Below, one piece after another: positions 38,815 to 58,702 of a stretch of DNA of 64,000 bases. The stretch's first letter is position 1, and the number at the start of each line of letters is the position of its first letter. The notes under the pieces are model-generated. The model was not told the DNA's origin and did no database searches. It was given only the letters and a program-made list of their open reading frames with translations. The DNA is from Hyphomicrobiaceae bacterium. GTDB lineage: Bacteria; Pseudomonadota; Alphaproteobacteria; Rhizobiales; Hyphomicrobiaceae. Both the position numbers and the translations under genes were made by a program. The stretch is taken from assembly GCA_021730785.1 (NCBI GenBank), contig JAKFWF010000028.1, positions 62,001 through 126,000 of the forward strand, written 5' to 3'.

Positions 38815-41800
38815 ATGACAGCCGAATCCGATAAGCGCGATGACAAGAAGATTCTGGCCCCGGTCGGGGCGCTTTTCGTTGGCATGGTCGCCGCGAAAAA
38901 CCTCGCCAAGCAGGGCGACGATCGTCCGCTGAAGGCGATGGAGCGCGCCGAGCGGCTGCGCAAGGCTGGCGCTCACGAGACGAAAATCTACGCCGAAACC
39001 AACAAGATGCTCGCCAACTCGCCCTATGCCGGCGTGAGCTACGGTGCCGACAAGAAGCCGCGCTTCGAGATCAGCGATCACGATTCGAAGTTGCGCGCAA
39101 CAGGTTTGCCGTCATCCGGCCGCGGCCACATGGGCGACCTCGTTGCTCACGAGACCTACTTCAAGGCACATCCTGACGCTCGCCTGCTCGAAGTCGAGAA
39201 GGTCGACGGTCGCGGTGGGAGTTATGACGGCCGCAAGATCACCATCGGCGAGAACCAGTTCGCTCCCAAGCGGCTTATGGGGCGCCCGGTGGCCAAGCCT
39301 GCTGCGAAGGGCGTTGCCCTGCATGAACTGCAGCACCATGCCCAGAGCATCGAGGGACATACTCCAGGCGGCTCGCCGAACGATTTCAGGAACCGCGTTT
39401 CCGATCCTAACATGCGGACCGCCCTCTACAACTCGCTCGCCGGCGAGGTCGAGGCCGAGAACACCCGCAAGCGCCAGATGATGACGCCGGCAGAGCGCCG
39501 GGCAACCCATCCAGACAAGACCGCCTCGTTGCCGCGCGCCGAGCAGATCGTCACCGATCAGCATGGTCGAGTGCAGGAAATTTTCGATCCCAAGTCGATC
39601 AAGGTCACCAAGATTCATACTGGCGCTGCGATCAAGTTCGACTACGACCGCGATACGGTCGCCGATTTCAAGAAGCAGTTTCCCAAGGCTAAGTGGTCTC
39701 AGGACACCAAGACTTGGCACGTGCCAGGAAAACTCGCTGGCAGTCGCGCCGATCGGTGGCTAGCAGCACAGATGGACACGGCTGGCAAACTCGCCAAGGC
39801 GGACGCCATTGCCCGTGATGCAGTTGCGTTCGACGGCGCTCCGAAAAGCAAGTACGTGCGACCGTTACCGCAAGGATATCGCGTTCAAACCGGCTACGAT
39901 GCCGATATCGTCAAAGCGCTCAAGGCGATCCCGGGCAGTTCGTGGGAGGCGCAGAGCAAGACGTGGATGATTCCTCATCGCAGTGCCAACGAGCTCAAGG
40001 CGGCATTGCCAGCGATCGAGCATCTGGCCGACAAGATCGTTGCTGAAGAGAAGGCAAAGCAGGGTAAGCGGGCGGCCGATAAGGAAACTCAGCGCAAGCA
40101 ATGGGCGGCCGAGCGCGCTGCTTCGACTGCGGCCCGCGACACCGAGATGGCCAAGGTCCGCGCTTCTCGAATTGCGATTCAGGGCAGCGATAACGTGAAA
40201 ATCGGCGACGCCGTCATGCTGGGTGGCAAGGTCGCCGTTGTCGAGAGTTTTGGCAAGGTGTTTCGTACTGACGAAAGCTTCTCGTCCTTGCATGGTAGCC
40301 GTTGGCTTGGCCAAGAGGGCGAACTCGCCCGCTACGCCTACACTAGAGAAGCTACGCCGACCGAAGTTGCGACGTTTCGTGCCAAGGAAGCTGCGGCGAA
40401 GGCAGAATCAGAGGTCAGAGCGCGCCTGCACAAGGCAGCGTCAGATGCGAAAGCCAGCATCGAGTCCAAGTTCGCCGAAAATGCTACACCGAAGCGGAAG
40501 TTTGCTGCGATCCCCCAAGGCGAAACGCTGGCGCATTTTGGACGGCAGAACGCGATCTATGGCGGCGGCACAGAATACCGCCTCAGCGCTGACGGCAAGA
40601 CGATCTGGCGCATCATGGGTAATGGTGCTGATGGCGACAATTGGAGCGCCAACAATGCCCCTGGCTCGATCCTCAGCAAGATCAAAGCAACCAAAGACGC
40701 CGTATCTAAACTTCGCGCGCTCAACGTGATCGAATCGAGCGGCCTGCGCGGGACGCAGAACCCGGATAACCTTCGCGCGATACTTGAAGGCAAGGCGGCG
40801 CGTGGCAAGCAGACGGTACGCATCCAGGAGATGGTGGAGCCGCCCGACATCCGTTCCTCTGGCAAGCGCCACGCCATGGCGATGTCAGAGGCGAAGGCCA
40901 AGGCACCACAGCAGAGCACACTCACCAAGCCGACCCCGGGCGCGAACCTTGTTCAGCGCGGAGTCGAGCGTCCGAACCAGTCCAAGCGCTACGTCACGCT
41001 CGGAGATGGCCGCAAGGTTACGCTTGGCCAGTACACCGAAGCCTGGAAGATGGCTAAGTCGCTCCCGCCGTCGACCAAGGTGCGCGGCTCGCCCGATTCC
41101 CCCTTTCGAGACGCCCCCAACACGGCAGGCGATGCTGTCCAGCAATTCCGCCGCGCGCTCAACGACAGGATCAACCAGAAGACCCCCGGCTTTGAGCAGG
41201 GCCGCAAGTGGGATCAGACTTGGCAGAACGACGCCCGCCGCCTCGCCGAGACCCTGAAGATGAAAAGCGAAGTTCCAGCCGGTCAGGCACACCCGGTTGA
41301 CCTTCGCGCCAAGATCGCAGATCGTCTTGAGCCGGGCACCAAGATCCCTCCCGCCAAGGGGACACGAGTCCCAAGAAAACTGATGGGCCTTCTGGCACCC
41401 GTTGCCATCGGCGCGGCAGCCCTTGTCGCCATGAACGAGAGTGCCAAGGCAGGCGAGACCGGAATCAGTCAGGCCAAGGCCGGCGCGATCGAGGCTGGCA
41501 AGGGTGTCGCCGTCATGGGTGGCTTCGTTGCTGGTACTACGCTCGCCACCAAGGGGCTGCTCAAGGCCGGCATGAGGCTCGCGACCGCTGTTCCCGTCGT
41601 CCAGGCTGCAATGATCGCTGGTGGAGCCGTTTACGGTGCTGCTACCGCCAAGCCAGGCGAACGTCTGAAGGGTGCCGCCAAAGGCGCTTTCGACATGAGC
41701 CTGCCCGGTATGGTGGTCAACACCGGTATCGCCGCCCACGAGGCCTACAAATCCACCTCGGAGCGCATCGGCGCCGCACCGTCGCGCCTGAACGTGGTGC

Positions 41801-41949
41801 AGCAGTCAGAATTCGCGGCCGCCAACGCCGCCTACAAGTCCAAGCAATCAGGTCCAATCGTTGTGAAACAGTTCGAACGGACCCACCGCTTGCCTTCCGG
41901 TCAAATGGTTACTGAGATCATCCCAACTCACACGCGCAAGCGCGCCTGA
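38815..41949 (+). CDS. Giant polyvalent-type protein A: HExxH peptidase, HARP-like repeats, shared C-terminal module
   Basis: A 1044-residue protein. Residues 160-250 match the zincin found in polyvalent phage proteins: LHELQHHAQ (His170, Glu171, His174), GGSPNDF, LAGEVEAEN and MTPAERRATHPD. Residues 272-305 and 354-389 are tandem units ending KTWHVP and KTWMIP, resembling the HARP DNA-annealing motif. An SSGLRGTQNPDN motif lies at 641-652. Residues 857-980 are a Gly/Ala-rich hydrophobic module also present in the 48226 gene, followed by the tag RLNVVQQSEFAAANAAY. It directly precedes the lysis-like and terminase genes. Likely a virion protein injected with DNA (inference). Confidence 0.78.
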   Translation: MTAESDKRDDKKILAPVGALFVGMVAAKNLAKQGDDRPLKAMERAERLRKAGAHETKIYAETNKMLANSPYAGVSYGADKKPRFEISDHDSKLRATGLPSSGRGHMGDLVAHETYFKAHPDARLLEVEKVDGRGGSYDGRKITIGENQFAPKRLMGRPVAKPAAKGVALHELQHHAQSIEGHTPGGSPNDFRNRVSDPNMRTALYNSLAGEVEAENTRKRQMMTPAERRATHPDKTASLPRAEQIVTDQHGRVQEIFDPKSIKVTKIHTGAAIKFDYDRDTVADFKKQFPKAKWSQDTKTWHVPGKLAGSRADRWLAAQMDTAGKLAKADAIARDAVAFDGAPKSKYVRPLPQGYRVQTGYDADIVKALKAIPGSSWEAQSKTWMIPHRSANELKAALPAIEHLADKIVAEEKAKQGKRAADKETQRKQWAAERAASTAARDTEMAKVRASRIAIQGSDNVKIGDAVMLGGKVAVVESFGKVFRTDESFSSLHGSRWLGQEGELARYAYTREATPTEVATFRAKEAAAKAESEVRARLHKAASDAKASIESKFAENATPKRKFAAIPQGETLAHFGRQNAIYGGGTEYRLSADGKTIWRIMGNGADGDNWSANNAPGSILSKIKATKDAVSKLRALNVIESSGLRGTQNPDNLRAILEGKAARGKQTVRIQEMVEPPDIRSSGKRHAMAMSEAKAKAPQQSTLTKPTPGANLVQRGVERPNQSKRYVTLGDGRKVTLGQYTEAWKMAKSLPPSTKVRGSPDSPFRDAPNTAGDAVQQFRRALNDRINQKTPGFEQGRKWDQTWQNDARRLAETLKMKSEVPAGQAHPVDLRAKIADRLEPGTKIPPAKGTRVPRKLMGLLAPVAIGAAALVAMNESAKAGETGISQAKAGAIEAGKGVAVMGGFVAGTTLATKGLLKAGMRLATAVPVVQAAMIAGGAVYGAATAKPGERLKGAAKGAFDMSLPGMVVNTGIAAHEAYKSTSERIGAAPSRLNVVQQSEFAAANAAYKSKQSGPIVVKQFERTHRLPSGQMVTEIIPTHTRKRA

Positions 41950-41965
41950 TATGGAGACATAGGCG

Positions 41966-42806: not shown

Positions 42807-43010
42807 CTACATTACAACGACCCAGTACGAATAGAATTCCAACTCAACAGCCTGCAAGGACGCCAGCGTCAACCCGATCTTCACCGACGGGCCCATGATG
42901 CCGTTCTTGGTGAAGGCCGCGACCCAGTAGGAATAGAAAACCACAAACAGAAGGACGAACCCCCCGGCGCTTCCCCCACGCCGATGACGGTTTCGAATGG
43001 AGACCACCAA
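42807..43010 (-). CDS. Possible antisense membrane protein (67 aa)
   Basis: An open frame with host-like third positions fills the gap between the membrane genes and the terminase on the opposite strand. It has two FYSYWV segments, around FVLLFVVFYSYWVAAF and at the C-terminus. The matching DNA is a 17-of-18-base direct repeat. Start codon (TTG or GTG) and ribosome site are unclear, so this is tentative. Confidence 0.38.
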   Translation of the reverse strand: MVVSIRNRHRRGGSAGGFVLLFVVFYSYWVAAFTKNGIMGPSVKIGLTLASLQAVELEFYSYWVVVM

Positions 43011-43732
43011 TGGCCAAGATCAACGGCCTGACCAAGGCACAGCACAAGTTCGTGGAGCACTACGCTCTCCATCGCAACGCCGCAGAGGCATATGGTGCCG
43101 CCTATCCCAAGAGCCGAAAGAACGTGGCGCAATACAGGTCCAAAAAGGGTCGAGCACTCCTGAAAAAGGGGCTAATTAGGGACCGGCTCACGCAACGCAC
43201 TGAAATCGTTGAACGAAAAGCGAACGAAATGTTCTCTATTACAGCCCATACAGTGCTGCAAGAGATCGCAGCGATGGCGTTCGCGAATGCAGACTCGTAC
43301 TTCGAGTGGGGATCTTCCGAACGCCCGGCTTACAAGAGAAACGGTGACCCGATTATCGATCATTCGACCGGTGAGCAGCGCATGGACACCGTGCCGTATG
43401 TCCGGATCAAGCCGTCAAGCGATCTGACCCGAGTGCAGAAGGCCGCGATCGTCGCGGCAGAGGAAACGATCTCAAAGACTGGCGATCGCGTGATCTCGGT
43501 GAAGCTCGGTAACAAGCTTGGCGCGCTCACCAAACTTGGCGATCACCTCCGGCTGTTCTCCGCCCCGGCTGATGGTGGCATGCCAGCAGGTGCAATCATC
43601 AATGGCAACGTGACGGTGAACAACCTGACCCCGAAGGACGTTGCCGGCATCGACGACAAGCGCGATGCGCTGAAAGCTTTCGAGGCGATGCGGAATCGGG
43701 CCATAACGGTCGAGCCTTCACCGACAGGATGA
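43010..43732 (+). CDS. Terminase small subunit
   Basis: A 240-residue protein. GLTKAQHKFVEHYALHRNAA and AEAYGAAYPKS form the N-terminal DNA-binding helix-turn-helix; the middle (ITAHTVLQEIAAMAFANADS) is the oligomerisation region typical of terS of this kind. It recognises packaging sites on phage DNA. Directly followed by the large subunit. Confidence 0.85.
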   Translation: MAKINGLTKAQHKFVEHYALHRNAAEAYGAAYPKSRKNVAQYRSKKGRALLKKGLIRDRLTQRTEIVERKANEMFSITAHTVLQEIAAMAFANADSYFEWGSSERPAYKRNGDPIIDHSTGEQRMDTVPYVRIKPSSDLTRVQKAAIVAAEETISKTGDRVISVKLGNKLGALTKLGDHLRLFSAPADGGMPAGAIINGNVTVNNLTPKDVAGIDDKRDALKAFEAMRNRAITVEPSPTG

Positions 43733-43735: not shown

Positions 43736-45292
43736 GTGCTCTGGCCCCCGAGATTTCAGGCTGAACTGGCAAGACGACTCGACCTGGAACTGGCGATCAG
43801 GTCCGACCCAAAAATGTTGGCGGCGGCGAAGCTGTACTACGCCAACGGTGCCGACGGGCTCGTGGCGTTCGTCAGTGACTGTGTGTGGGTGACGGAGCCG
43901 CGCAACGCCAACAAGGGCGAGCCTACCCGCATCCCGGTGGTGCCGTTCCCACGACAAGCCGACTTCCTTCGGTGGATGGTGGAGCGGTTCGAGACGCACA
44001 CATCGGCGCCGGTCGAGAAGAGCCGCGACAGTGGCGCTACGTGGATGGCGGCAGCGTTCGCGGTTTGGCTGTGGCTGTTCTATCCCGGGTCCTCGATCGG
44101 GTTCGGCAGTCGTAAAGAAATGCTTGTCGACCGCTCCGGCGACATGAACTCGATCTTCGGCAAGGTCCGTGCGATCATCGACCAGTTGCCGAAATACATG
44201 GTCCCGGTCGGGTGGAACCCAAAGTCTCACTCGAACTACATGAAGATCCTGAACCCGGAAAACGAGGCCGTAATAATCGGTGAGGCTGGCAACAACATCG
44301 GCCGCGGCGGTCGAACGTCGGTAACGATCATCGACGAAGCGGCCTTCCTTGAACATCCGCAACTCGTCGAAGCGGCTCTGACCGCCAACACAGACTGTCG
44401 CATCGACATATCGTCGCCTCGCATCGGCACGGTGTTCAACGAGTGGCTCGCCACTTCGACGCTGAAGTTCATTTTCGACGTCGATGAGATCCCTTGGCAT
44501 ACCAAGGAATGGAAAGAGCAGAAGGAAAATGACCTGAAGGCCAAAGGGCTTGGCCATCTGTTCGCGCAAGAGTATTTGCGCGATGGGTCAGCCGGCATCG
44601 AAGGTCAGTTGATCCCGGCCGCATGGGTTCAAGCCGCGATCGACGCCGACAAGGCGCTCGGGCTCATCCCCAAGGGCATCAAGACGGCGGCGCTTGACGT
44701 TGCCGATGGTGGCCAGGACCGCAGCGCGCTCGCTCATCGTCACGGACTGCTGTGTCGCGACGTCAAGACGCGCGGTGACTGCACCGCTGATGTGTCTGGC
44801 ACATGGGGGCACGGTCTCGCACTGCTCGCCGGCTGCGCATCCCTTCGATATGACAGCATCGGTGTCGGTGCCGGCGCTGGCGCCATGATCAAGCACAAGA
44901 AGGACGTCGCCTGCACGGGCTGGAACGCTTCTGGATCGGTCGTCGATCCGTCACAGGTCGTCGAGGGCACCAGGATCAAGAACGAGGACTTCTTCGCTAA
45001 CGCCAAATCGCAGGGCTGGTGGTGTCTGCGGTCGATGTTCTATGAGACCTATAAGGCCGTGGTCGAGAAGAAGCCATACGACGTCGAGAAGATCATCAGC
45101 CTGTCGAGCCAGATCAGCGAGCTTCGTGAGCTCAAGACGGAACTGTCGCAGGTGACATACAAGCACAATCCAGCCGGCCAGGTCTTGATCAACAAGGCAC
45201 CGGATGGCACGCGTTCGCCGAACCGGGCCGACGCAGTCATGATCTGCTATGCGCCGTTCGCGCGCGGTGTTCAGGTGCTCGGGATGTTCTAA
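43736..45292 (+). CDS. Terminase large subunit
   Basis: A 518-residue packaging motor. EKSRDSGATW (94-103) is the Walker A-like motif, VTIIDEAA (196-203) Walker B plus catalytic Glu, and ALDVADGGQDRS near residue 320 begins the RNase H-like nuclease domain, which ends with NRADAVMICYA. GTG start behind AGGA. Full length. Confidence 0.93.
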   Translation: MLWPPRFQAELARRLDLELAIRSDPKMLAAAKLYYANGADGLVAFVSDCVWVTEPRNANKGEPTRIPVVPFPRQADFLRWMVERFETHTSAPVEKSRDSGATWMAAAFAVWLWLFYPGSSIGFGSRKEMLVDRSGDMNSIFGKVRAIIDQLPKYMVPVGWNPKSHSNYMKILNPENEAVIIGEAGNNIGRGGRTSVTIIDEAAFLEHPQLVEAALTANTDCRIDISSPRIGTVFNEWLATSTLKFIFDVDEIPWHTKEWKEQKENDLKAKGLGHLFAQEYLRDGSAGIEGQLIPAAWVQAAIDADKALGLIPKGIKTAALDVADGGQDRSALAHRHGLLCRDVKTRGDCTADVSGTWGHGLALLAGCASLRYDSIGVGAGAGAMIKHKKDVACTGWNASGSVVDPSQVVEGTRIKNEDFFANAKSQGWWCLRSMFYETYKAVVEKKPYDVEKIISLSSQISELRELKTELSQVTYKHNPAGQVLINKAPDGTRSPNRADAVMICYAPFARGVQVLGMF

Positions 45293-45426: not shown

Positions 45427-46497
45427 ATGTCCGACGCAGCTTCCAAGCCGCGCCGCTCGGTAGAGCGCGCAAGCCAAGTGCTCGACCGCGCCGCCCGCAT
45501 GTCGTCGTTCAAGCCGGGCTTCCTCGATCGCCGCCTGTTCGATACGCAGATGCGGACGCCGGGCAAAGTCGATGCCCCGTTCTCGATGAACTCGCTCGAT
45601 CCGAAGCTGCTCAAGGCGCGCGGCGAGCAGATGATACCGATCGCCAAGGTCCGGTCGGAACAGCCCACGGTCTCGCTTGCCGGCGCCAAGTCGAAGCTGA
45701 CCAGCCCAACCGGATCGTCGAAGTTGCCGCTGATGGTTCAGCACAACGGCACTTATTGGGTGGCGGACGGTAACCACCGTGTCACCGCCGCACGCGCGCT
45801 CGGCGAAACCCACATCAGGGCTCAAGTCGCCGACCTCAATGCCCAGATCAAAGGGCCGCTGATCAAGCCTGGCACTGTGGGCAAGGGTATCGGGATGGCC
45901 GCCAACATCGCCGGGCCCGTCGCCGTTGCGGCGAACGCCACCATGGCGTTCAAGGCTGCACAGAATGCAGGTAAGTCCGACGCTGCCGCGGCACTCGATG
46001 CCACGTTCGCCGGCACCCGCACGGCAGTCACTGGCATCGCGATCGGTGGCACGGTCAAGGCGCTGGCACAGGCTGGCGTCAAGGGCGCCACACTTCTCGG
46101 CCGTGCCGCCGTGCCGCTCTCGATCGCAGGTCACGCCGCCGCCTACGGCATCGCTGCCGCCCGTCGTGGTGAAGACGGCCTCGGTGTTCTTCGTGCAGTT
46201 GGCTGGGGCGCCATCAACGGTGCCGTGCCGATCGATCTCACCACTCAGGCCATCATATCAATGCGGTCGCCGAAGTCGCAGGCGAGCGCCGCGCCTGCCG
46301 GCGGTGACAGCCGCATGTCGGCCGCGCAATCGAAGCAATTCGCCGAGGCCAATTCCGCGTTCATGACCGGCCAGAGCCACAAGATCGGCCAGGCCGAGCC
46401 TGACAACGGCAACACCAAGCGCGGCACGCAGAACGCCGCCAACATCGAAGCGATCAACAAGGGCCGCGCTGCCCGCGCTGCCGCCAACCAGACCTGA
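45427..46497 (+). CDS. Tagged protein B: ParB-like domain plus hydrophobic core (356 aa)
   Basis: Residues 65-135 include a ParB/Srx-type segment (YWVADGNHRVTAARALGE, Asp114 to Arg118). Residues 150-280 are Ala/Gly-rich hydrophobic helices like those of the polyvalent proteins. The C-terminus carries the shared tag RMSAAQSKQFAEANSAF and then KRGTQNAANIEAI, ending four residues after AAAN-type repeats. Lies between terminase and portal, so a head-associated or injected role is likely (inference). Confidence 0.72.
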   Translation: MSDAASKPRRSVERASQVLDRAARMSSFKPGFLDRRLFDTQMRTPGKVDAPFSMNSLDPKLLKARGEQMIPIAKVRSEQPTVSLAGAKSKLTSPTGSSKLPLMVQHNGTYWVADGNHRVTAARALGETHIRAQVADLNAQIKGPLIKPGTVGKGIGMAANIAGPVAVAANATMAFKAAQNAGKSDAAAALDATFAGTRTAVTGIAIGGTVKALAQAGVKGATLLGRAAVPLSIAGHAAAYGIAAARRGEDGLGVLRAVGWGAINGAVPIDLTTQAIISMRSPKSQASAAPAGGDSRMSAAQSKQFAEANSAFMTGQSHKIGQAEPDNGNTKRGTQNAANIEAINKGRAARAAANQT

Positions 46498-46802: not shown

Positions 46803-48239
46803 ATGTCGACAGCATGGTCCCGGTTCCGCGCCGGATTTGAAGGAAAGTCGTACGCTCCGGCGCCGCTGTCAGCACAGTCGTCTCCGATGCAGTACCTGAC
46901 ATCCCTGTCGGGATCAACGATCACGCCGTATCAGGCATGGATGCTCTACAAGAACGTGTCGGCGTTTGCCAAGGTCGTGGATCTGATCGCCGATATCGTT
47001 GCTTCTCTGGTTCCGGTGGTGAAAGAGAACGGCAAGATAGTCGACGGCCATCCGGTCGCGCTGTTTCTCGCCCGTCCAGGCTTCAACCGCACCCGTCGGC
47101 GCCTGATCAAAGAGGCGGCCGTTCAATACCTCGTCACCGGAACCGCCTACTTCCACAGCTACGGCGAGATCAACCGGCCGCCGATTGCCGTCGATATCCT
47201 GAAGAGTCACTTCATCACCAATACGCCCGGCGCCGACATGTGGCCGATGATGATGAACTACTCCGAGGGCTCGCGGAACGTCCGGTTCGTCCGCGACGAG
47301 AACCCCAGGGACTTCCGGTTCGTCGACAGCCAAGGCGCGCTGGCCGAACTGGTGTCGGTCTACGACATGGACGGCGATTTCAGGGGCACCGGTTTGCCCC
47401 GCTTGAACGCGATCCGCACCGACGTCGAGCTGCGCATGAAGGGCATCCAGCACAACAATTCGATGCTCGACAAGGGCGCCCGCATGTCCGGCATCCTGTC
47501 GTTCAAAGAGTCGATGACGGAAGAGCAGGAAGAGCTCGTCCGCAACATGTTCATGCAGCGGGCCACCGGGGCTGATAACGCCGGTGGCGTGCTTGTGACA
47601 TCGGGCGGCGCCATGGAATTCCAGCAACTGTCGCAGTCGATGAAGGACATGGACTTCGCCAATCTGATCCAGATCGTCGAGGATGCGATCGTCACCCGCT
47701 ACAACGTGCCGATCACGCTGTTCCGGATCGAGGCGCAGACCGACAACAACTACGATACGGCGTGGCGGGTGCTCTATGACCTGTCGATCCTGCCGTGCTT
47801 CCAGATCCTCTATTCTGGTCTTGGTACGATGTTCTCGAACCGGCTCGGCGTCGACATCGAATTCGAGCACGACGCCTTGACCAATGGCGTGCTCGCCAAG
47901 GCCGCCGTCGACCGTGCGCGCGGACTGTTCGGCTCGAACCTCGTCAGCCGTAACGAAGCCCGTCAGATCACCGGCTATGAGCCGGTGCTGGGTGGCGATA
48001 TCATCTACGGTTCGGCCGGCACGGTGCCGCAGGGCGAAGACCTGTTCACCGGAATTGATGGTTTACACGCCGAAGGTCCGGGCACTGCCGCCCCGATCGT
48101 GCTGCATCCGCAGTCACAGCAGACCCAGATCGAAGACGACACGGCCGAGAAGGCGGACCTAGTCAAGAAGGCGATCGACCGGCTGTCGCTCGTGGTCGAC
48201 AACCTCACACAGAAGCGGATGGCTGATGGACAAGCGTGA
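46803..48239 (+). CDS. Portal protein (HK97 family)
   Basis: A 478-residue protein. MYxLTSLS-like start with ITPYQAWMLYKNVSAFAKVV, ADIVASLVPVVKENGK, HPVALFLARPGFNRTRRRLI, YLVTGTAYFHSYG and the clip/stem region (SMLDKGARMSGILSFK) match the phage portal family that forms the DNA-entry vertex. It overlaps the next gene by 14 bases. Confidence 0.9.
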   Translation: MSTAWSRFRAGFEGKSYAPAPLSAQSSPMQYLTSLSGSTITPYQAWMLYKNVSAFAKVVDLIADIVASLVPVVKENGKIVDGHPVALFLARPGFNRTRRRLIKEAAVQYLVTGTAYFHSYGEINRPPIAVDILKSHFITNTPGADMWPMMMNYSEGSRNVRFVRDENPRDFRFVDSQGALAELVSVYDMDGDFRGTGLPRLNAIRTDVELRMKGIQHNNSMLDKGARMSGILSFKESMTEEQEELVRNMFMQRATGADNAGGVLVTSGGAMEFQQLSQSMKDMDFANLIQIVEDAIVTRYNVPITLFRIEAQTDNNYDTAWRVLYDLSILPCFQILYSGLGTMFSNRLGVDIEFEHDALTNGVLAKAAVDRARGLFGSNLVSRNEARQITGYEPVLGGDIIYGSAGTVPQGEDLFTGIDGLHAEGPGTAAPIVLHPQSQQTQIEDDTAEKADLVKKAIDRLSLVVDNLTQKRMADGQA

Positions 48240-51200: not shown

Positions 51201-51882
51201 CAAGAAACCCGGCGGCGGCAGAGCACTCGGTCTACTTGCGCCGGTCGCACTAGCTGCTGCTGCCCTTGTTGCAGCCAATCGGTCGGCAGAAGCAGGTGAA
51301 TCGAAGACCAAGCAGGCCGCGGCAGCGGGTGCCGAGGTCGGCAAGGGTGCTGTTGTCATGGGCGGCTTCATGGCAGGCACCGCAGGGGCAACGGCTGGCC
51401 TCCTGAAACTCGGTGTGCGTGCGGCGACCGCAATCCCTGTCGTCCAGGGCGCTCTGATCGCCGGCGGTGCGATCCATGGCGCGATCACGGCCAAACCCGG
51501 CGAACGCTTGGCCGGTGCGACCCGGGGCGCGTGGGATATGAGCCTGCCTGGCATGGTCGTGAACACCGGCCTTGCGGTCAAGGAAGCGGTCGACTCGACC
51601 AAGGCTCGATCGGCGGCCCCGGTCAACGGTCGACTGGCGGCAGATCAGCAGAAGGCTTTCGCCAGCGCCAACATGAACTACCACGCCAAGGCGGCGGCTG
51701 CTCAGAATGACGACCGGGTGAACCATTCCAAGGGCTGGTCGAATGAAGCCCGCATCAAGGCATATCAGGCCAAGGCCGAGAAACGCGGCTTCGACCCGAA
51801 GAACGTCCCCTACGGTGGCAAGCAGTCGGAAGGCCCATCGCAGTGGGTGTCCAATCCCGACCTGAGCAAGAAGCGCAATTGA
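48226..51882 (+). CDS. Giant polyvalent-type protein C: DdrB-like ParB domain, SAP-like segment, shared C-terminal module
   Basis: A 1218-residue protein. Residues 35-365 match the DdrB-like ParB domain of polyvalent phage proteins: VIADGHQRHGLATRL (97-111), KNIHESSGQSLDMAKVVRD, SLFGEETNTRSLLKERAQVL and IFGLLQREAGNIESVGNKL. Residues 780-830 resemble a SAP/Rho-N DNA-binding segment. TSGLRGTANAANRDAI (883-898) and TSGLRGTQNAAK (963-974) are motif copies. Residues 1001-1130 match protein A's C-terminal module, then the tag RLAADQQKAFASANMNY. Lies between portal and MuF-like genes. A DNA-protecting, co-injected virion protein is inferred. Confidence 0.78.
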   Translation: MDKRDVEIAAGGAAAGAGGLLGYRAWRSSTERDLLDGKAVSLKRLDPRNISVDPDTFQFKSGGDAKGVTDRLKNVTKWNPTAAGKAMVFEKADGTHVIADGHQRHGLATRLAGTGQKIAMDAIVMREKDGWTAKDVRAYAAIKNIHESSGQSLDMAKVVRDRPDLVNGSLPLSDSKVKDAMSLSKLSDSAFKAVVGGVVKPEHAAAIGEQVVDKGRHEGLIKEMAKAEIQSAQHARLYVSQAMAAPQHTESNFSLFGEETNTRSLLKERAQVLDKALTALKSDKRIFGLLQREAGNIESVGNKLSHEANTAKAEGAGQTAALIEKLSTSRGAVSSMIDQAAKAVVEGKKPSAAARAFIKQVGDTLKSGGINALMSDQPRTQEMIGFGKKGGTPQVSAGELAIAREKIKGTSPEAMGKWGKILDNMPGDKKESARRDRVKAEAANKQNPVRVQRMEDPKGKQAGMFGEATMADKIAVANRAIDAKGRTGDPMNEGLFGSGKLQADLVDMAKKQPERGVHLANSLVPWNQNAEAAKISGMSDKELAQLERTNSSRATPNVAARHKLAVAEIEARKANPGWSDSARSASAEARKADMKPEALTPAEMKTLERAMTSGRGEKVSKQHAAMIARASNEQVLALDDKAMAARRANAVSDADFNRLQDFRSQFREHAKKTSNTDFNASIGRSEPAVAKNPVSEAERAGRINRLQNRAGAGGLSGKEAEKYVASNLTKLEALDAQRAGTTAQAPAAPKAAAKPRAAAKKATPNTNSPHTVTASDFDKPAAKAALERLNGLNKSQLSDVAKEMGVIPGKTVAKTKIAVGQEIHRRSHAAFKGQMAGQLGGAWGGTSDASTDKAVLAQKQARAAAEAKLHAAIDRVAQSPLETSGLRGTANAANRDAIIKNRKANAAPKVSRSDILKMANDGIPKGQPSSELYDRALKAKPTSALDRLEARQGDFAGAEKKPTSGLRGTQNAAKPMDAPTGQPSAPAAKSGSKKPGGGRALGLLAPVALAAAALVAANRSAEAGESKTKQAAAAGAEVGKGAVVMGGFMAGTAGATAGLLKLGVRAATAIPVVQGALIAGGAIHGAITAKPGERLAGATRGAWDMSLPGMVVNTGLAVKEAVDSTKARSAAPVNGRLAADQQKAFASANMNYHAKAAAAQNDDRVNHSKGWSNEARIKAYQAKAEKRGFDPKNVPYGGKQSEGPSQWVSNPDLSKKRN

Positions 51883-52994
51883 TGGACCCGATGCTGGCCG
51901 CCAAGCTCGCGCTTGAGCAGGAGGTGGCAGCCCCCCTGTTCACGGCCTGCTCGCTCTACATCGCAGAGTGGCGCGACTATCAAGGGAACCTTCCCTACTT
52001 CGCCCGTCTCCAGCACACGAGCGCGATAGAGGCTATCCTGACCCGGCACTATGCCCGGGTGGTGATGGTGGTGACCGGACGCAAGCCAGACCAGGAGGGG
52101 CGCCTCGAAGACGCAGCCCTCAACTACCTGCACGCCCAGCGGCTCCAGACCCGAGCCCGCGAGCAAGCGGCAATGATCATCGCCGGCGTCGACCGTGAGA
52201 TCGCCAAGGCCCGCCTCTCCGTCCAGGAGGGCAAGACCGAAGACATCCAGATGGAGACGAAGGAGAGCTTCGTCACCTTCACCATCCGAATGGCGACCTC
52301 GTTCATTGAAACGGCGAAGAAGGCAGTCCAAGCCCTCGCTGCCAAGATCGGTGCGATCGCCAACGTCCAGACCCAAGGCCCGGCAGAAGAGGCCGTGATC
52401 GAATGGGTCGACGACAACAAGGACGCCGACAGCACGATCTTCAACGTATGGGTGACGATGAAGGACGACAGAGTGCGCGATTGGCACTCTGAGGCGGAAG
52501 GCCAGGAGCGCCGGCTGAACGTTCCGTTCGACGTCGGCGGCGAGCAGTTGCGCTATCCCGGAGACGCAAGCCTAGGCGCATCACTCCGCAACTTGATCAA
52601 TTGCCGGTGCAGCCTGAGTTTCATCGCGGTCGATGCCAACGGCAACCGGCGAGACTTGAACCTGCCGACGCCGCACGCACCGACCCGCTCGACCCGCACC
52701 CCAGGCCAACCGCTGACATCTAACAACGGCCGGTTCCAACCGACCGAACTCGTGACTTTGAACGGCACCACACGGGCGCGGATCGTGCTCGGCGACGGCA
52801 AGACCTTGGCCAATTTGAGGCAAGTCAAGCCAGACACGGTTGTCATCAGCATCAACCGCAAGCCGATCGCCCGGGCGACATTCAAGAACGGCAAGATCAC
52901 TTCGATGCAGGTCGACCCGAAGCACCAGTCTCAAGGCATCGGAGAGATGATTCGTCGATCAGTCGCCAATTCGTTCAACCGCGGCAACCGATAG
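51882..52994 (+). CDS. MuF-like minor head protein with GNAT-like C-terminus
   Basis: A 370-residue protein. The centre (DDRVRDWHSEAEGQERR, NVPFDVGGEQLRYPGD, NLINCRCSLSFI) is the Mu gpF/SPP1 gp7 domain found behind portals. The last 60 residues (KPIARATFKNGKITSMQV, DPKHQSQGIGEMIRRSV) read as the beta4-alpha3 acetyl-CoA loop of a GNAT enzyme. The start overlaps the previous stop (TGATG). Such C-terminal extensions on MuF proteins can be effectors; activity here is unproven and the domain is short. Confidence 0.8.
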   Translation: MDPMLAAKLALEQEVAAPLFTACSLYIAEWRDYQGNLPYFARLQHTSAIEAILTRHYARVVMVVTGRKPDQEGRLEDAALNYLHAQRLQTRAREQAAMIIAGVDREIAKARLSVQEGKTEDIQMETKESFVTFTIRMATSFIETAKKAVQALAAKIGAIANVQTQGPAEEAVIEWVDDNKDADSTIFNVWVTMKDDRVRDWHSEAEGQERRLNVPFDVGGEQLRYPGDASLGASLRNLINCRCSLSFIAVDANGNRRDLNLPTPHAPTRSTRTPGQPLTSNNGRFQPTELVTLNGTTRARIVLGDGKTLANLRQVKPDTVVISINRKPIARATFKNGKITSMQVDPKHQSQGIGEMIRRSVANSFNRGNR

Positions 52995-53253
52995 GTCGCT
53001 CATGTCGAAAAAACTCTTTCACGACCAAGTCGACAGCTTCTTTGCAGGTTACCGGAAGCGGACATCTCAGCTGACACCTTAGCCGTCTATAGCCTTCTTG
53101 GTTGTGCGGGAGCAGCACATCGAAAAAAGCGCTGCTCTCGGTAAACTTTTTGCCGTGGCGCGCTATGAAGGTTTCTAGTGTCGGGATCACGACTTCGTAG
53201 CCGATTACGCGGTGAACCTCGGCCCTGACCTTCTCGGCTTCAAATGCTGTCAT
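52975..53253 (-). CDS. Reverse-strand moron-like gene (92 aa)
   Basis: A protein-like frame on the opposite strand within the head operon (TAFEAEKVRAEVHRVIGYEV and FIARHGKKFTESSAFFDVLL). It overlaps the end of the MuF-like gene by 20 bases; no rightward gene occupies the 430 bases around it. No family recognised. An upstream promoter candidate supports independent expression in the lysogen. Confidence 0.52.
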   Translation of the reverse strand: MTAFEAEKVRAEVHRVIGYEVVIPTLETFIARHGKKFTESSAFFDVLLPHNQEGYRRLRCQLRCPLPVTCKEAVDLVVKEFFRHERPIGCRG

Positions 53254-53287
53254 GTGCCCGCGATCTCAGGTTTGGTACTGGCTTCCC

Positions 53288-53316
53288 AAGCCTAGCATGG
53301 CAACTAAACCATCGCA
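53288..53316 (-). promoter_or_regulatory. Candidate promoter of the reverse-strand moron-like gene
   Basis: On the minus strand TTGCGA (53311-53316) and TAGGCT (53288-53293) with a 17-base spacer, 35 bases before the gene's ATG. Moderate match only. Confidence 0.33.
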
Positions 53317-53425
53317 ATTCCGACTTTTACTAACCCGTCGCGCCTCGCCAGCGCCGACGGTCATTCGCGTTTTGCGCGGCGGCGAAGCGCGATCACCACA
53401 CCAAAACCGAAAGAGGAACTGCCAC

Positions 53426-54514
53426 ATGGCACGCAAGATGTTTGACACTTGGTCCGGCCTCAGCGGATTCATTGAGGAAGGCGAGACCAAGGCTATCCGC
53501 GAGGAAGAGACCTGCTACCGCCTCACCGGGTACGCTGCGACCTGGGACAGCGACAAGATCCGCGACCAGATCCAGCCCGGCGCCTTCAAGAAGAGCCTTG
53601 AGCGCCGCGTGGCCGAGGATGACGACGTCCAACTCTACTACAACCACAAGACCGACGACGTTCCGATCGGTCGGATCGTCAAGATTGGCGAGGACCGCAA
53701 GGGCCTGCGCTACGAAGCCGAGATGTCCAAGGATGACGAATTCGTCGTCAAGCGGATCGCGCCGGCCATCAAGAGCCGGGCTCTCAAGTCGAATTCGTTC
53801 GGCTTCCGCACCATCAAGTCGTCGCCGCGGCAGGGTGGAGGCCGAGTGCTGCACGAGCTCGAACTGATCGAGATCAGCGTTGTCAACACCCCTTGCAACG
53901 CGCGGGCGAACATCGAGGGCATCAAAGGCTTCATTGGCTTCCAGGATCTCCCGGTCGACGCCAAGACCAGCGCCTGGGACGCTGCTGCTGCTCTCGCCCG
54001 TATCCGTTCGCACTTCGGATCGAACACTGACGAACTCAAGAGCGCGTTCCTCTTCGTCGATGAAGAAAAGTCGGCAGACGAATGGGACGCTCGCCTCCTG
54101 ATCGCAGATATTGTCGACGGACGCCTTGTTGCGAATCGTGTCGCACTATACAAAGCGAATGCGGCGCTTTGCGGCGCTAGAGGCGGAGTGGTTCTACCAG
54201 AAGAAGTCGGCGATGAGGTCAAGAGACACATCGGTCGTTACTTCACACGGATGAGCATCGAGTCCCCCGTCGAGAAGTTTTCAGTTGTCGAGTATGATGC
54301 CCTGGAGGACGGCGAGCGGGAAGCTCGTCTTCGATCCCTCGGCCTCAGCCAGTCTCTGGCAAAGAAGTTCATTTCTGGTCACCGGGACGGTGATCGCAAG
54401 ACCCAACGGGATGTCGGGTCGATCTCGGACGTGTCCGAGCTCTTCAACGCTGTACGGCTCATTAGCGCCGCAGCGGATGCGATCAAGCCTAAACCCCCCG
54501 CAACCGGAAAATGA
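53426..54514 (+). CDS. HK97-family prohead protease with C-terminal extension
   Basis: A 362-residue protein with the start behind AGAGGAAC. Residues 28-165 are the U35 protease: LTGYAATWDSD, PGAFKKSL, catalytic His74 (LYYNHKTDDVPIG) and Ser124 (KSNSFGFR), and LELIEISVVNTPCN. It matures the capsid and probably internal proteins. The 190-residue C-terminal part (AWDAAAALARIRSHFG, FLFVDEEKSADEWDARLLIA) is a second domain often attached to such proteases, of unknown role. Confidence 0.9.
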   Translation: MARKMFDTWSGLSGFIEEGETKAIREEETCYRLTGYAATWDSDKIRDQIQPGAFKKSLERRVAEDDDVQLYYNHKTDDVPIGRIVKIGEDRKGLRYEAEMSKDDEFVVKRIAPAIKSRALKSNSFGFRTIKSSPRQGGGRVLHELELIEISVVNTPCNARANIEGIKGFIGFQDLPVDAKTSAWDAAAALARIRSHFGSNTDELKSAFLFVDEEKSADEWDARLLIADIVDGRLVANRVALYKANAALCGARGGVVLPEEVGDEVKRHIGRYFTRMSIESPVEKFSVVEYDALEDGEREARLRSLGLSQSLAKKFISGHRDGDRKTQRDVGSISDVSELFNAVRLISAAADAIKPKPPATGK

Positions 54515-54520: not shown

Positions 54521-55822
54521 ATGTCTGCGACCCCAGACCTTTCGGCCGAACTGGCCAAAATGAACACCGAAGTGAAGAGCGCGCTCGCGCAGCTTCACGG
54601 CGCGGTTGACGCCAAGCAGGCAGAGACCGTGAAGAACATCGAAGAGAAGTTCTTCAAGAAATACGACGAACTCGCCGCCAAGCATCAGGACGCGATCCTG
54701 GCGCATGCCAAGGAGAAGACCGAGGCCGAAGAGAAGGCCAAGGAAATCCGCGCGATGTTCGAGAAGTCCGATGCCAAGTCGATCGACCTCGAGAAGCGCG
54801 TCAACGACCTCCTGATGACGCTGGCATCGGGCGCCAGCAAGAAGGACGCGGACCCGCGCGATACGGAGCACTACAAGGCGTCGATGGAGGCCTTCAAGGC
54901 CGACCAGAAGATGTGGGACTTCGTGGTCCAGAAGAACCACAAGATCCTGATGGATACGCCGGAAATGAAGACCCTTCGCACCGACGTCGGCGCCGCCGGC
55001 GGATTCCTTGTGCCCCAGGTCATGGACTCCGAGATCCGCAAGAAGATCACCGAGACCTCGCCGGTCCGCATGCTCTGCCGCAACCGGACGATCCCGAACA
55101 AGTCGATGGACGTGCCGATCCGCGACGTGCTGCAGTCGTCTTGGTACGAAGGCGAGGCCGAGCCCGCCCAGGACACCAACTCAAAGTACGCCCAGGAGCA
55201 AGTCACCACGTTCCGGCACACCTGCCGTGTCGACGTGACTCTCGACCAGTTGATGTCGACGCCGTTCAACCTCGAAATGGAGATCAGCTCGGACGCATCC
55301 GAGTCGTTCGCCAAGACCGAGGGCGTCAAATTTTTGAAGGGATCCGGCAACCGTGAGCCGCAGGGCATTCTGAAGGACAGTCGGATCGTGTCCGTTGCCA
55401 CGGCGAATTCTGGTGTTCTGACATTCGACGACATCGCCAAGCTGATTGGCGAGTTGAAGAGCGGCTATCAGGGCGTCCTTGGTTTCAACCGTAAGACATT
55501 GGCCGGTCTGCGCCAGATCAAGGACGGCTACGGCCGTCCGCTGTGGACGCCGGTCACCGACGGTGCGCCCGCCGCAATCTGGGGCGAGCCCTACACTGAT
55601 CGGATGATCGACCTCGACAGCTACAACGACGGCTCGGGCTCGAAGCCGATCGTCTATGCCGACTGGATGCGGACCCTCGAAGTTTTCGATATGGTCGGCA
55701 TGATGGTCGTTCGTGACGACTTGACCCTCGCGACCAACGCCAAGGTCCGGTTCATCTTCCGCCGCTGGAACACCTCACGGGTGCTGATGCCCGAGGCCGC
55801 CAAGATCCTCGTGATCCAGTAA
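54521..55822 (+). CDS. Major capsid protein (HK97 fold)
   Basis: A 433-residue protein. Residues 1-125 form a charged coiled-coil scaffold (delta) domain (EEKFFKKYDELAAKHQDAIL) normally removed by the protease; the mature part begins near KTLRTDVGAAGGFLVPQVMD and contains MDVPIRDVL, the P-domain and RVDVTLDQLM, typical of HK97 capsids, ending in VRFIFRRWN and AAKILVIQ. Next to the protease, as usual. Confidence 0.93.
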   Translation: MSATPDLSAELAKMNTEVKSALAQLHGAVDAKQAETVKNIEEKFFKKYDELAAKHQDAILAHAKEKTEAEEKAKEIRAMFEKSDAKSIDLEKRVNDLLMTLASGASKKDADPRDTEHYKASMEAFKADQKMWDFVVQKNHKILMDTPEMKTLRTDVGAAGGFLVPQVMDSEIRKKITETSPVRMLCRNRTIPNKSMDVPIRDVLQSSWYEGEAEPAQDTNSKYAQEQVTTFRHTCRVDVTLDQLMSTPFNLEMEISSDASESFAKTEGVKFLKGSGNREPQGILKDSRIVSVATANSGVLTFDDIAKLIGELKSGYQGVLGFNRKTLAGLRQIKDGYGRPLWTPVTDGAPAAIWGEPYTDRMIDLDSYNDGSGSKPIVYADWMRTLEVFDMVGMMVVRDDLTLATNAKVRFIFRRWNTSRVLMPEAAKILVIQ

Positions 55823-55828
55823 CCGGCG

Positions 55829-55855: not shown

Positions 55856-55901
55856 TCCCACTACAATCTCATCCTATCATCAGGTCTACTGGAGAAGAAT
55901 C

Positions 55902-56312: not shown

Positions 56313-56322
56313 TGATCAACCA

Positions 56323-56349: not shown

Positions 56350-56366
56350 CTGTCAGGGGGAAACCG

Positions 56367-56986: not shown

Positions 56987-56987
56987 G

Positions 56988-57173: not shown

Positions 57174-57176
57174 CCC

Positions 57177-58067
57177 ATGGCCGGCGTCGTCAAGCGAGGT
57201 TTGAGCCGAGACGAACTACTCGGCGACGGCACGCCTGCCTCTCCCCGTGGCCGGTCGATGCCACGCGACGACCGCGCTCCACCAGAGAAGTCCAAGACCT
57301 CCCGCGGTATCGATGCCGCAGTCGGTGGCGCGACGATCGCGGCGGCAGCATACGACGTCAAGCAGTATTCGGCACAGGCGGCTGGAGCCGTCACGGGGGG
57401 CGCTCGCAACGCTCAGAAGGCGGCAAAGGGTGCCGGCAAACTGGCAGCCCGTGGCGCATCCGGTGCTGCAAAGGGTCTTGGGATCGCAAATGCCGCAGCC
57501 AAGGCGGCGCAGAGCCCGGCCGCAGCCGTTGCCGGCAAGATCTTGAATTCTCCTCTCGTCAACGGTCTGAGCCGAGTTGCCCTGCCGATCCTTGCTGCAC
57601 GCGCAGCCTACAATGCATATCAGGGCTATCAAAAGGACGGAGTAAGGGGTGCTGTTCTTGGTGCCGCTGATGCGGCGACTTTTGGATTGGCTAGTGTCGG
57701 GTTTGACAAGGCCAAGAGCGCCTATAACACGGCGTTTGGTGGCCCAAGCAATGGTGGACTAGATCCGACGGCTAAGGCTCTGGTCGAAACAACATCGCCA
57801 GGCAAGCAGTTTTCAGATCTTACGCGTCCGGCTTTTCAACCGCCGGGCGGATCTCCCAGGATTACAACGGCGCAGGCAGAAAGATACTCGGCCGCCAACG
57901 GCAAGTTTTCCGCAGGCGCGCAGGAGAAAGGTGAAGGCGACAAGCAGGCCACAGGCGGTCCTCGAGGGTTTGCCAACCCGGCGACGCAGTTCGCAGCACA
58001 GTCAGCGCGTGGCGTACGCAACATTTCGGATTGGGCACGAGATGGGGATTCCAAAGGCAAGCTATGA
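57177..58067 (+). CDS. Tagged protein D: Gly/Ala-rich hydrophobic protein (296 aa)
   Basis: Residues 45-180 are Ala/Gly-rich helices (ALPILAARAAYNAYQGYQKD) and resemble the shared hydrophobic modules. The C-terminus has the variant tag RITTAQAERYSAANGKF (228-244) and GGPRGFANPATQF (260-272) in place of RGTQN. Placed between head genes and connector. Virion-internal role is inferred. Confidence 0.65.
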   Translation: MAGVVKRGLSRDELLGDGTPASPRGRSMPRDDRAPPEKSKTSRGIDAAVGGATIAAAAYDVKQYSAQAAGAVTGGARNAQKAAKGAGKLAARGASGAAKGLGIANAAAKAAQSPAAAVAGKILNSPLVNGLSRVALPILAARAAYNAYQGYQKDGVRGAVLGAADAATFGLASVGFDKAKSAYNTAFGGPSNGGLDPTAKALVETTSPGKQFSDLTRPAFQPPGGSPRITTAQAERYSAANGKFSAGAQEKGEGDKQATGGPRGFANPATQFAAQSARGVRNISDWARDGDSKGKL

Positions 58068-58123
58068 GCAGGCAAAAGGTAGAAGACAGTCAAGTTTAAT
58101 ATGACGCATAAGGATAAAGGAAA

Positions 58124-58702
58124 ATGGGAAACAAGAGAAACACGGCCACCGGCACCAAATTCGATGGGCAAGCCTCCAGATCTAAAACAAGCCAGCGTTC
58201 CGTGGATAAAGGGCAGCGTGCAATGAAAACTGGGTTAGGCGTCGCAATTACAGGAACCGCAATCAAAGGGGTGGCAACTGGCGCCGGGCTTGTTGGATTG
58301 GCAACTGCGAATGTTCCGCAAGCCGTTCTCGGGTATTTGGGGAGGCAATTCGGGCATGGAATTAATGCTGCTGGAATGGGGATTTACAACGCTGGTCAAA
58401 GACGTGTGACTTTTGCCAATGGTTTGGACGGATTAGTTTCCAAATCTAATGGCAACTCTGCCGCACTTGGAATGCGTAGAATTCAGCGCGCCATGCCACA
58501 GCAGGAGTCGCGCTTGTCGCCGGCAGAACAATCTAAATTCGCGGCAGAAAACAAGGAATACGGTCAGCAGCATGTTGCCGCCGAGCCAGCCGACAAAGGC
58601 ACTGGCAACAAGAAACGCGGCACTCAGAACGAGAAAAATCAACAGGCCATCATTGCGGCCCGCCAAGCCAAGGCTGCTGCCAACGGTGGTGGTGACAAGT
58701 AA
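58124..58702 (+). CDS. Tagged protein E: short hydrophobic protein (192 aa)
   Basis: A basic N-terminus, hydrophobic helices (GVAITGTAIKGVATGAGL, LVGLATANVPQAVLGYLG), then tag RLSPAEQSKFAAENKEYG (130-147) and KKRGTQNEKNQQAI (163-176), ending like protein B with a helix rich in Ala and Arg. The 58060-58540 stretch is visibly less GC-rich and uses more A/T third bases than neighbours, suggesting separate ancestry. Confidence 0.68.
   Translation: MGNKRNTATGTKFDGQASRSKTSQRSVDKGQRAMKTGLGVAITGTAIKGVATGAGLVGLATANVPQAVLGYLGRQFGHGINAAGMGIYNAGQRRVTFANGLDGLVSKSNGNSAALGMRRIQRAMPQQESRLSPAEQSKFAAENKEYGQQHVAAEPADKGTGNKKRGTQNEKNQQAIIAARQAKAAANGGGDK

Follow-up and report, generated by a model that had tools for sequence, protein, structure and literature searches.

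A candidate C-terminal capsid-targeting module on five otherwise different head-region proteins of a prophage from a Hyphomicrobiaceae bacterium

The stretch of DNA analyzed here, referred to as the window, comprises 64,000 nt of contig JAKFWF010000028.1 (GCA_021730785.1; positions 62,001 to 126,000, forward strand) from a Hyphomicrobiaceae bacterium. It contains a prophage whose head-gene stretch encodes five differing proteins, designated P1 to P5, each with a C-terminal 17-residue tag. The initial annotation had reported five ORFs of 192 to 1,218 aa among terminase, portal, protease, and capsid genes; the ORF list agrees, and the same gene slots are used in a second phage. The P1 gene ends 1.1 kb upstream of the terminase small subunit (TerS) gene, P3 overlaps the portal gene by 14 nt and the MuF gene by 40 nt, and the P5 and head-tail adaptor genes have 1 nt in common. 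The features are as follows (window coordinates).

38815..41949, +, P1 (1044 aa): zincin-like N-terminal domain, HARP-like stretch, internal RGTQN, hydrophobic domain, tag
40747..40806, +, P1 internal RGTQN motif (aa 645-664), present too in the P1 counterpart of a third phage
41377..41769, +, P1 hydrophobic Gly/Ala-rich domain (aa 855-985), 62% identity to the P3 domain
41785..41835, +, P1 tag RLNVVQQSEFAAANAAY, with no G(T/F/W) motif downstream
43010..43732, +, TerS (context)
43736..45292, +, terminase large subunit, TerL (context)
45427..46497, +, P2 (356 aa), between TerL and portal: weak ParB-like match, hydrophobic domain, tag, RGTQN
46312..46362, +, P2 tag RMSAAQSKQFAEANSAF
46420..46479, +, P2 RGTQN motif, 19 residues past the tag
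46803..48239, +, portal (context)
48226..51882, +, P3 (1218 aa): predicted ParB/Noc fold, internal GWSD and RGTAN, hydrophobic domain, tag, KGWSN
48376..49263, +, P3 predicted ParB-fold domain (aa 51-346), phrog_10691
51631..51681, +, P3 tag RLAADQQKAFASANMNY
51730..51789, +, P3 KGWSN motif, 16 residues past the tag
51843..52994, +, MuF-like head protein (context)
53252..54514, +, head maturation protease (context)
54521..55822, +, major capsid protein (context)
57177..58067, +, P4 (296 aa), between capsid and head-tail adaptor: hydrophobic region, tag, RGFAN
57858..57908, +, P4 tag RITTAQAERYSAANGKF, the weakest of the tags in leave-one-out analysis
57963..58022, +, P4 RGFAN motif, 18 residues past the tag
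58124..58702, +, P5 (192 aa): tag and RGTQN; hydrophobic domain not clearly present
58511..58561, +, P5 tag RLSPAEQSKFAAENKEY
58616..58675, +, P5 RGTQN motif, 18 residues past the tag
58702..59394, +, head-tail adaptor (context)
61796..63364, +, tail sheath (context)

The tag occupies residues 991 to 1007 of P1, 296 to 312 of P2, 1136 to 1152 of P3, 228 to 244 of P4, and 130 to 146 of P5, leaving 37, 44, 66, 52, and 46 residues, respectively, to the C terminus; positions R1, F10, A13, and Y17 are constant. A regular expression for the tag, composed post hoc, matched exactly the five known sites in six frames of the window and had no match in 20,000 shuffles of P1 to P5. Leave-one-protein-out HMMs are the fairer test. 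Here, the top match was correctly placed in all six tagged proteins (P1 to P5 and the P4 of a sister phage), and the tag score was reached in 0 (P1), 0 (P2), 1 (P3), 3 (P5), and 0 (sister P4) of 1,000 shuffles. P4 is weak by this measure (60 of 1,000), and with that qualification the models bear out the common signature first proposed. The only profile that covers a tag in P1 to P5 is phrog_24986 (P2 residues 243 to 341; E = 0.021; function unknown), among Pfam and PHROGs at E values up to 1 and NCBIfam at E values up to 10. In the literature, we found no description of the tag among the matches listed, and none for RGTQN or for C-terminal capsid-targeting phrases.

The tag is part of a larger C-terminal module, not a lone 17-mer. 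The order of its parts is a Gly/Ala-rich hydrophobic domain, the tag, a linker of 16 to 19 residues, and a G(T/F/W) motif that, like the tag, is predicted to be helical. The initial annotation had noted RGTQN or RGTAN followed by N..AI in four proteins and RGFAN in the fifth; we find the former in P1, P2, P3, and P5 and the latter in P4, but the P1 (residue 645) and P3 (residue 887) copies are internal and precede the tag. These copies, together with a partial one in P3 at residue 967, sit between domains and are unaccompanied by a tag, and the C-terminal end of P1 has no such motif. The tag-to-motif distance, 16 to 19 residues in P2 to P5, is 19 in sister P4 and 14 to 24 in the third phage. 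In leave-one-out searches with the RG motif on seven proteins, no score was reached by any of 1,000 shuffles per protein; in the case of sister P3, the result refers to an internal copy, which the held-out model preferred over the C-terminal RGWAN copy. The G(T/F/W) pattern, defined post hoc, occurs 24 times in 14 sequences versus a mean of 2.5 and a maximum of 9 in 500 shuffles, and does not occur in 16 other proteins from the same stretch. A likeness of this motif to NUMOD3 was considered and rejected, there being no Pfam match at E values up to 1.

P1 and P3 have approximately 160 residues in common at 62% identity, so the shared part exceeds a tag. The hydrophobic domain is recognized in P1 to P4 and not clearly in P5. 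With a model of all relatives, a hydrophobic region before the tag was recovered in 12 of 13 proteins, in which 0 to 3 of 500 shuffles scored as well (3 for t1 and 2 for t5 of the third phage, 0 for the rest; 256 for P5). Because shuffles preserve composition but not hydropathy, these counts flatter the homology of the region; smaller models did not link P4 to P1 and P3 (494 of 500 shuffles). A model of P4 and sister P4 recovered the P5 region with 2 of 500 shuffles, and P5 is not a firm domain-free exception.

The module is present in two metagenomic relatives, the sister and the third phage. The third-phage contig was retrieved through its ParB domain, independently of the tag. In gene slots corresponding to those of the window it encodes six tagged proteins, whose N-terminal parts differ from the window ones. 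A tag model from window and sister placed its top match at the expected position in all six (0, 2, 0, 0, 1, and 0 of 1,000 shuffles), and the corresponding module model, run on 11,340 ORFs of 92 loci, detected t1 (E = 2.2e-8) and t2 (E = 3.4e-7). Across the whole 97.7-kb contig, module matches were confined to 51 to 76 kb. A plain contig search with the tag-only model reported three of the six tags, and the reverse model was weak (56 of 1,000 shuffles for P1 and 97 for P5). Just two sister proteins match, P3 and P4. Sister P3 contains the motif, and its tag is in doubt (35 of 1,000 shuffles); the module model gives this protein an E value of 7.3e-8. Its C-terminal half is closest to P1 (30% over 376 aa), and the C terminus of sister P4 is closest to P2 (33% over 150 aa). 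None of the four ORFs in the sister TerL-portal slot carries the module, and the whole upstream sister contig (24.4 kb) has no tag or module match. Tag similarity is 0.35 for four ortholog pairs, one of which (P5-t5) is paired by position only, versus 0.351 for non-ortholog pairs; that orthologous tags are no closer than others fits a short docking consensus. Likeness within one phage is just slightly higher (162 of 5,000 permutations).

Outside this lineage of phages, no credible copy of the tag turned up. A search of 397 order-level, 385 class-level, and 299 phylum-level genomes, samples that overlap, gave three marginal module matches outside these phages, and tblastn of two tails against 50,697 phage records gave none. 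No relative was confirmed in viral contigs scanned with P3, TerL, or the major capsid protein, each alone, or in genome contigs scanned with the hydrophobic domain (105 stretches) or the portal (97 stretches). The P1 scan of viral contigs yielded nine distant loci with neither tag nor motif. TerL relatives in four genomes (L074-L078) had no credible tag or module. A search for C termini shared within a locus covered eight capsid-relative loci plus three named phage regions and found nothing comparable; this search recovered the set in the window but overlooked that of the sister.

Residues 77 to 252 of P1 form a zincin-like domain with the sequence HELQH, and HE(L/V)QH with a conserved downstream GE.EA occurs in the window, sister, and third phage. 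This combination of HExxH and a downstream Glu is that of zincin metallopeptidases, of which P1 would be a putative member; the domain matched no solved structure (best E = 0.15, to an unrelated one). The annotation of another phage protein that contains this domain reads "putative internal virion polymerase." The P3 N-terminal domain (AlphaFold2 mean pLDDT, 85) is predicted to have a ParB-CTPase fold: its best 13 Foldseek matches are all Noc, ParB, KorB, or Spo0J (best match, E = 4.5e-6; TM, 0.41/0.55; rmsd, 5.8), with no Pfam match at E values up to 1. Two further genes encode this domain: one directly precedes a "virion structural protein" (locus L089), and the other, 11.7 kb long, belongs to Ruegeria phage 45A6. 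In the sister, the zincin-like and ParB domains lie on one chain, and t1 combines a zincin-like domain with a GNAT-like match below the cut-off. For P2, the ParB-like match is weak (best E = 0.0008) and the predicted model poor (mean pLDDT, 49). Pfam scores for LPD23 (14.2 bits; cut-off, 27) and HARP (21.5; cut-off, 25) fall under their cut-offs. Two candidate relationships were rejected: P3 is not similar to DdrB, and only the HEL.H stretch of P1 aligns with the N4 virion RNA polymerase (E = 0.077).

A tag on five head-region proteins, and on six in the same places of a relative, looks like an address label for head loading. We think it somewhat probable that P1 to P5 are ejected, polyvalent-type proteins bearing a lineage-specific C-terminal capsid-targeting module. 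What we infer about virion location, binding partner, injection, and the roles of the module parts runs as follows. P1 to P5 would reside inside the head and exit the virion together with the DNA, the module having directed them to the prohead. Both the tag and the G(T/F/W) motif may bind a single shared partner within the growing head, candidates being the scaffolding part of the capsid protein, the portal, or MuF; by such binding, any protein fused to the module would be loaded. The hydrophobic domain more likely serves ejection, by entering or crossing a membrane. The N-terminal parts would be polyvalent-type cargo (zincin-like and ParB-fold domains, with a GNAT-like one in a relative) whose targets are incoming DNA or the defenses of the host. 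More tentatively, and as a possibility short of probable, a two-part address of tag helix and G(T/F/W) helix at near-fixed spacing may load five or six different, exchangeable effectors into the head in one phage lineage, with the hydrophobic translocation domain as a standard component; such a cargo platform would be unlike the short N-terminal signals of T4 and bacteriophage P1.

The frequency and conservation of the hydrophobic region are also what one would expect if it were an ejection or membrane module that the proteins share, one that acts at infection, forming or lining a membrane channel or anchoring the cargo at the inner membrane; the tag would then be a structural element of this module, and the loading signal would lie elsewhere. 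The ejected gp51 of phage N4 is described as ending in a hydrophobic stretch that may cross the inner membrane (PMC12633501). We consider this reading rather unlikely: P5 has tag and motif without a clear domain (though the P4-based model tempers this), the apparent homology is flattered by the shuffles and P4 stays apart in small models, and a hydrophobic stretch similar to that of P1 (34% over 92 aa; E = 0.003) occurs in locus L083, which yielded no match in a tag search. In most of the tagged proteins the tag is paired with this domain, so a single ancestral ejection protein could account for it. On a descent-only reading, one ancestor would have been duplicated and its N-terminal parts swapped, the tag being retained with no role in itself. 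The mosaic relations of the sister C termini to P1 and P2 favor this, but it appears improbable given the narrow range of linker lengths and the retention of the consensus in orthologous tags that are as divergent from each other as non-orthologous ones are.

The initial annotation had also suggested a protease-processing signal, for which we found no specific support. Such a protease would cut the tag or the RG motif and so free cargo after loading. A head protease is encoded, and G(T/F/W) motifs also lie between domains within P1 and within P3; however, the internal motifs lack a tag, and neither the capsid protein nor the protease has a tag-like match at E values up to 5, making this very improbable. 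Scarcely credible is that P1 to P5 are membrane proteins with a part in lysogeny or superinfection exclusion, encoded within the head operon only by chance. Their hydrophobic segments would suit such a role, but the recurrence of the slots in a second phage, the gene overlaps with portal, MuF, and adaptor, and the cargo domains in proteins annotated as, or adjoining, virion proteins argue against it. In the capsid-targeting reading, the common C-terminal element on different proteins proposed at the outset stands, and the lone tag gives way to a multipart module in which RGTQN is separate.

How head-borne proteins are selected is known for few phage cases. A short C-terminal module of this kind would be a search key for unknown injected effectors, any bearer being a candidate, and could serve as a handle for loading engineered capsids of laboratory phages.

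Polyvalent proteins, as described by Iyer et al. 2017 (PMC5512222), are multidomain proteins of phages with portal and terminase genes, contain metallopeptidase and ParB domains, and are predicted to be packaged. P1 and P3 may be akin to them, with their zincin-like and predicted ParB-fold domains and their portal/terminase context; P1 to P5 differ in their common C-terminal tag, which is not described in the passages of PMC5512222 consulted. No Pfam polyvalent-domain cut-off is reached by P1 to P5.

Like P1, the N4 virion RNA polymerase and the giant proteins of the type found in F116, a podovirus, have an HExxH domain. These giants are single chains of short-tailed phages, whereas the window has several smaller tagged chains and a tail sheath gene; domains of giant virion proteins are here split onto tagged chains or fused. 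In the giant ejected protein of N4, the HExxH domain is reported within the C1 domain, residues 2124 to 2375 (PMC12633501), and a C-terminal region of the N4 polymerase, 1,400 aa long, is required for encapsidation (PMC5512222).

The short signals described for T4 and bacteriophage P1 are N-terminal, unlike this long C-terminal region. DarB of bacteriophage P1, a myovirus, has an N-terminal packaging signal of 30 residues, and a short peptide suffices for reporter loading; the Dar proteins are head proteins, and DarB is thought to enter the cell (PMC9024508). The tag of the window proteins is C-terminal instead, and it had no match in the 32 kb scanned of the 94.8-kb bacteriophage P1 genome. 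In T4, one short N-terminal signal is described on several unrelated internal proteins, Ip1 to Ip3, that are packaged and injected (PMC12373910, PMC9024508). The tag of P1 to P5, by comparison, lies 37 to 66 residues from the C terminus and is joined by a second motif and mostly by a hydrophobic domain. Both systems nevertheless place a short peptide on several otherwise different proteins, packaging being somewhat probable for P1 to P5, and the module is best read as a C-terminal counterpart of the N-terminal signals in the T4 internal proteins and DarB.

A tRNA-Val gene (window positions 3224-3298) adjoins an integrase-like gene, called by eye, of the window prophage; no attR was found, since 16-mers taken from the tRNA region have no second copy in the window or in the remaining 12.5 kb of the contig. 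The head module runs from 43 kb with genes for TerS, TerL, portal, a MuF-like protein, protease, capsid protein, head-tail adaptor, and tail sheath. The five tagged ORFs described in the initial annotation were confirmed, and we refer to their products as P1 to P5. The P3 gene shares 14 nt with the portal gene and 40 nt with the MuF gene, and the overlap between P5 and the adaptor gene is 1 nt. By eye, the prophage also contains:
20997-21539, porin-like ORF with a signal-peptide-like start, early region, a possible moron
23003-24457 and 31648-33126, two DNA-methyltransferase-like genes

The short C-terminal tag reported for these proteins is indeed common to all five but is part of a larger module, in which a Gly/Ala-rich hydrophobic stretch precedes the tag and an R/K-G-(T/F/W)-x-N motif (RG motif) follows it. 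The motif lies 19, 16, 18, and 18 residues beyond the tag in P2, P3, P4, and P5, and 19 residues beyond it in the P4 counterpart of a related metagenomic phage (sister P4); P1 has no such motif downstream of its tag. In the predicted structure of P2, a low-confidence model (mean pLDDT, 49), helices cover the tag (residues 299 to 321) and the motif (337 to 355), and these score highest (73 and 76), with only block 121-130 also reaching 73.

A regular expression for the tag, composed after the fact from the initially reported pattern, had the five tags as its sole matches in the window and matched none of 20,000 shuffled sets. Leave-one-out tag models placed their best match correctly in each of six tagged proteins, with scores reached by 0 (P1), 0 (P2), 1 (P3), 60 (P4), 3 (P5), and 0 (sister P4) of 1,000 shuffles; the P4 tag taken alone is weak. 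RG motif models were reached by 0/1,000 shuffles in each of seven proteins, the result for sister P3 resting on its internal copy.

Searching with the hydrophobic domain identified one sister contig, L049, whose P4 counterpart carries tag and motif and whose P3 counterpart carries the motif and a doubtful tag (module model, E = 7.3e-8). A second contig, L084, is probably the upstream part of this sister phage, because it comes from the same metagenome and its final 51 bases are identical to the start of L049. Its last ORF (L084 7083-8837) joins the zincin-like domain of P1 (35%) and the ParB domain of P3 (63%) in one chain, by sequence a natural fusion of domains carried by two separate tagged window proteins. 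The four ORFs of the sister's TerL-portal slot all lack the tag, and neither tag nor module was matched anywhere in the 24.4 kb of L084; both results count against a uniform picture.

A search with the P3 ParB domain returned viral loci, and among the best 80 of 185, in which 12 of the 80 ParB-domain ORFs extend beyond their locus (including the sister's L084 and L085), tag or module occurred in one, L082. Its contig (G820, 97.7 kb), from a third, metagenomic phage, encodes six tagged proteins in the order t1, TerS, TerL (62%), t2, portal (60%), t3, two small ORFs, MuF, protease, MCP, a gp55902 counterpart, an unmatched ORF, t4a, t4b, t5, and the adaptor counterpart. These slots are those of the window, with three genes (t4a, t4b, t5) replacing P4 and P5. 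The window-plus-sister tag model placed its best match as expected in 6/6 (0, 2, 0, 0, 1, and 0 of 1,000 shuffles for t1, t2, t3, t4a, t4b, and t5; the t3 position was set by eye at a module-model match). The reverse model found P2, P3, P4, and sister P4 (0/1,000 each) and was weak on P1 (56/1,000), P5 (97/1,000), and sister P3 (35/1,000); a plain contig search with the tag model reported three of the six third-phage tags. The module model matched seven places on this contig, all at 51 to 76 kb (two of its rows are part of the model), and none in five other records searched beside it. Across 12 tags, the most constant positions are F/Y10 (12), A13 (11), Y/F17 (11), R1 (9), and A11 (9), and a PYGG element is additionally present in five of the six third-phage proteins and in P3.

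t1 combines the P1 domain (55%) with a GNAT-like stretch under the Pfam cut-off. Other features of these loci are as follows.
L172 3772-5535, minus strand: third-phage t4b, with a stretch that we take to resemble ADP-ribosyltransferase, for which Pfam gave no match
L082 12600-14582: third-phage MuF-like head protein, probably carrying an intein, to judge from residues 262 to 527 (Pfam Intein_splicing, 31.5 bits; cut-off, 35.8), which fall within an inserted segment that the MuF of the window lacks
L083 7809-10322: ParB domain 61% identical to that of P3 and a P1-like hydrophobic stretch, with a different C-terminal end, VQEYTRNDGTRVASYKRV, perhaps a different tag, loosely like the last residues of P1 by eye
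L003 10028-11059: P3's ParB domain (37%) in the record named Dunaliella viridis virus SI2 (Caudoviricetes), whose stated algal host looks doubtful

The hydrophobic stretches of P1 and P3 are 62% identical. In shuffles that preserve composition, not hydropathy, a small model of P1, P3, and sister P3 linked P2 (0/500) and did not link P4 (494/500), sister P4 (51/500), or P5 (434/500), while one of P4 and sister P4 linked sister P3 and P5 (2/500 each) and did not link P1 (414/500), P2 (195/500), or P3 (265/500). With all relatives included, 12 of 13 proteins were recovered at 0 to 3/500 shuffles of this kind, P5 being the exception (256/500); recovery of P4 may be owed to sister P4.

Outside this lineage the tag is rare. 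Among overlapping genome samples, the tag model matched 130 of 397 order genomes at E ≤ 0.5, no more than chance would give; beyond the genome itself, the top match had an E value of 0.0046 (20.5 bits), and the five own-genome matches (E ~1e-10) are the model's training set. In 385 class genomes, the module model found the own genome and two marginal matches (0.008). A wider module model found the own genome (four of five proteins, missing P1, which lacks the motif) and one match with an internal stop (7.8e-4) in the order genomes, and only the own genome in 299 phylum genomes. tblastn of the P2 tail and sister P4 against 50,697 phage records gave no match better than E = 7. The tag is therefore not widespread in unrelated non-phage proteins across these samples.

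The N-terminal domains have relatives in very large phage genes. The P1 domain matches phrog_21376 and is also part of the product of an 11.4-kb Pseudomonas phage gene, whose annotation reads "putative internal virion polymerase"; among the 30 of 42 records listed, annotations are mostly hypothetical, with two "structural protein." HE(L/V)QH and GE.EA are conserved in this zincin-like domain in three phages. The C1 domain of N4 vRNAP has an HExxH, and alignment of P1 with N4 vRNAP is confined to that stretch (E = 0.077). The P3 domain has a ParB/Noc fold, matches phrog_10691 (3925 positions), and occurs in Ruegeria phage 45A6 within an 11.7-kb gene whose product is labelled hypothetical; in viral locus L089, a tail protein gene, an unmatched 741-aa ORF, and the P3-domain gene are followed directly by "virion structural protein." Annotation and context, short of proof, suggest a virion location for both domain types.

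We propose that tag and motif would form a docking element for one common prohead partner, that the hydrophobic domain would serve at ejection, and that the N-terminal parts would be effectors. P5 has tag and motif without a clear hydrophobic domain, which suggests that the tag is separable from it. Tag identity across phages is equal for orthologs (0.35; four pairs, P5-t5 paired by position only) and nonorthologs (0.351), and tags of one phage resemble each other slightly more (162/5,000 label permutations). This pattern, a small effect in few proteins, is as would be expected of a short consensus for each phage's own partner.

Known packaging signals offer a comparison. T4 Ip1-3 have only an N-terminal leader in common, and the first 30 residues of phage P1 DarB load a reporter; in contrast, the window proteins share a C-terminal tag, a putative packaging signal. 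Iyer et al. predicted packaging of polyvalent proteins in phages with portal-terminase packaging and cite a requirement for the C-terminal 1,400 residues of the N4 protein in encapsidation. A literature search, with most subscription journals beyond its coverage, turned up no account of a short tag common to several proteins at the C-terminus.
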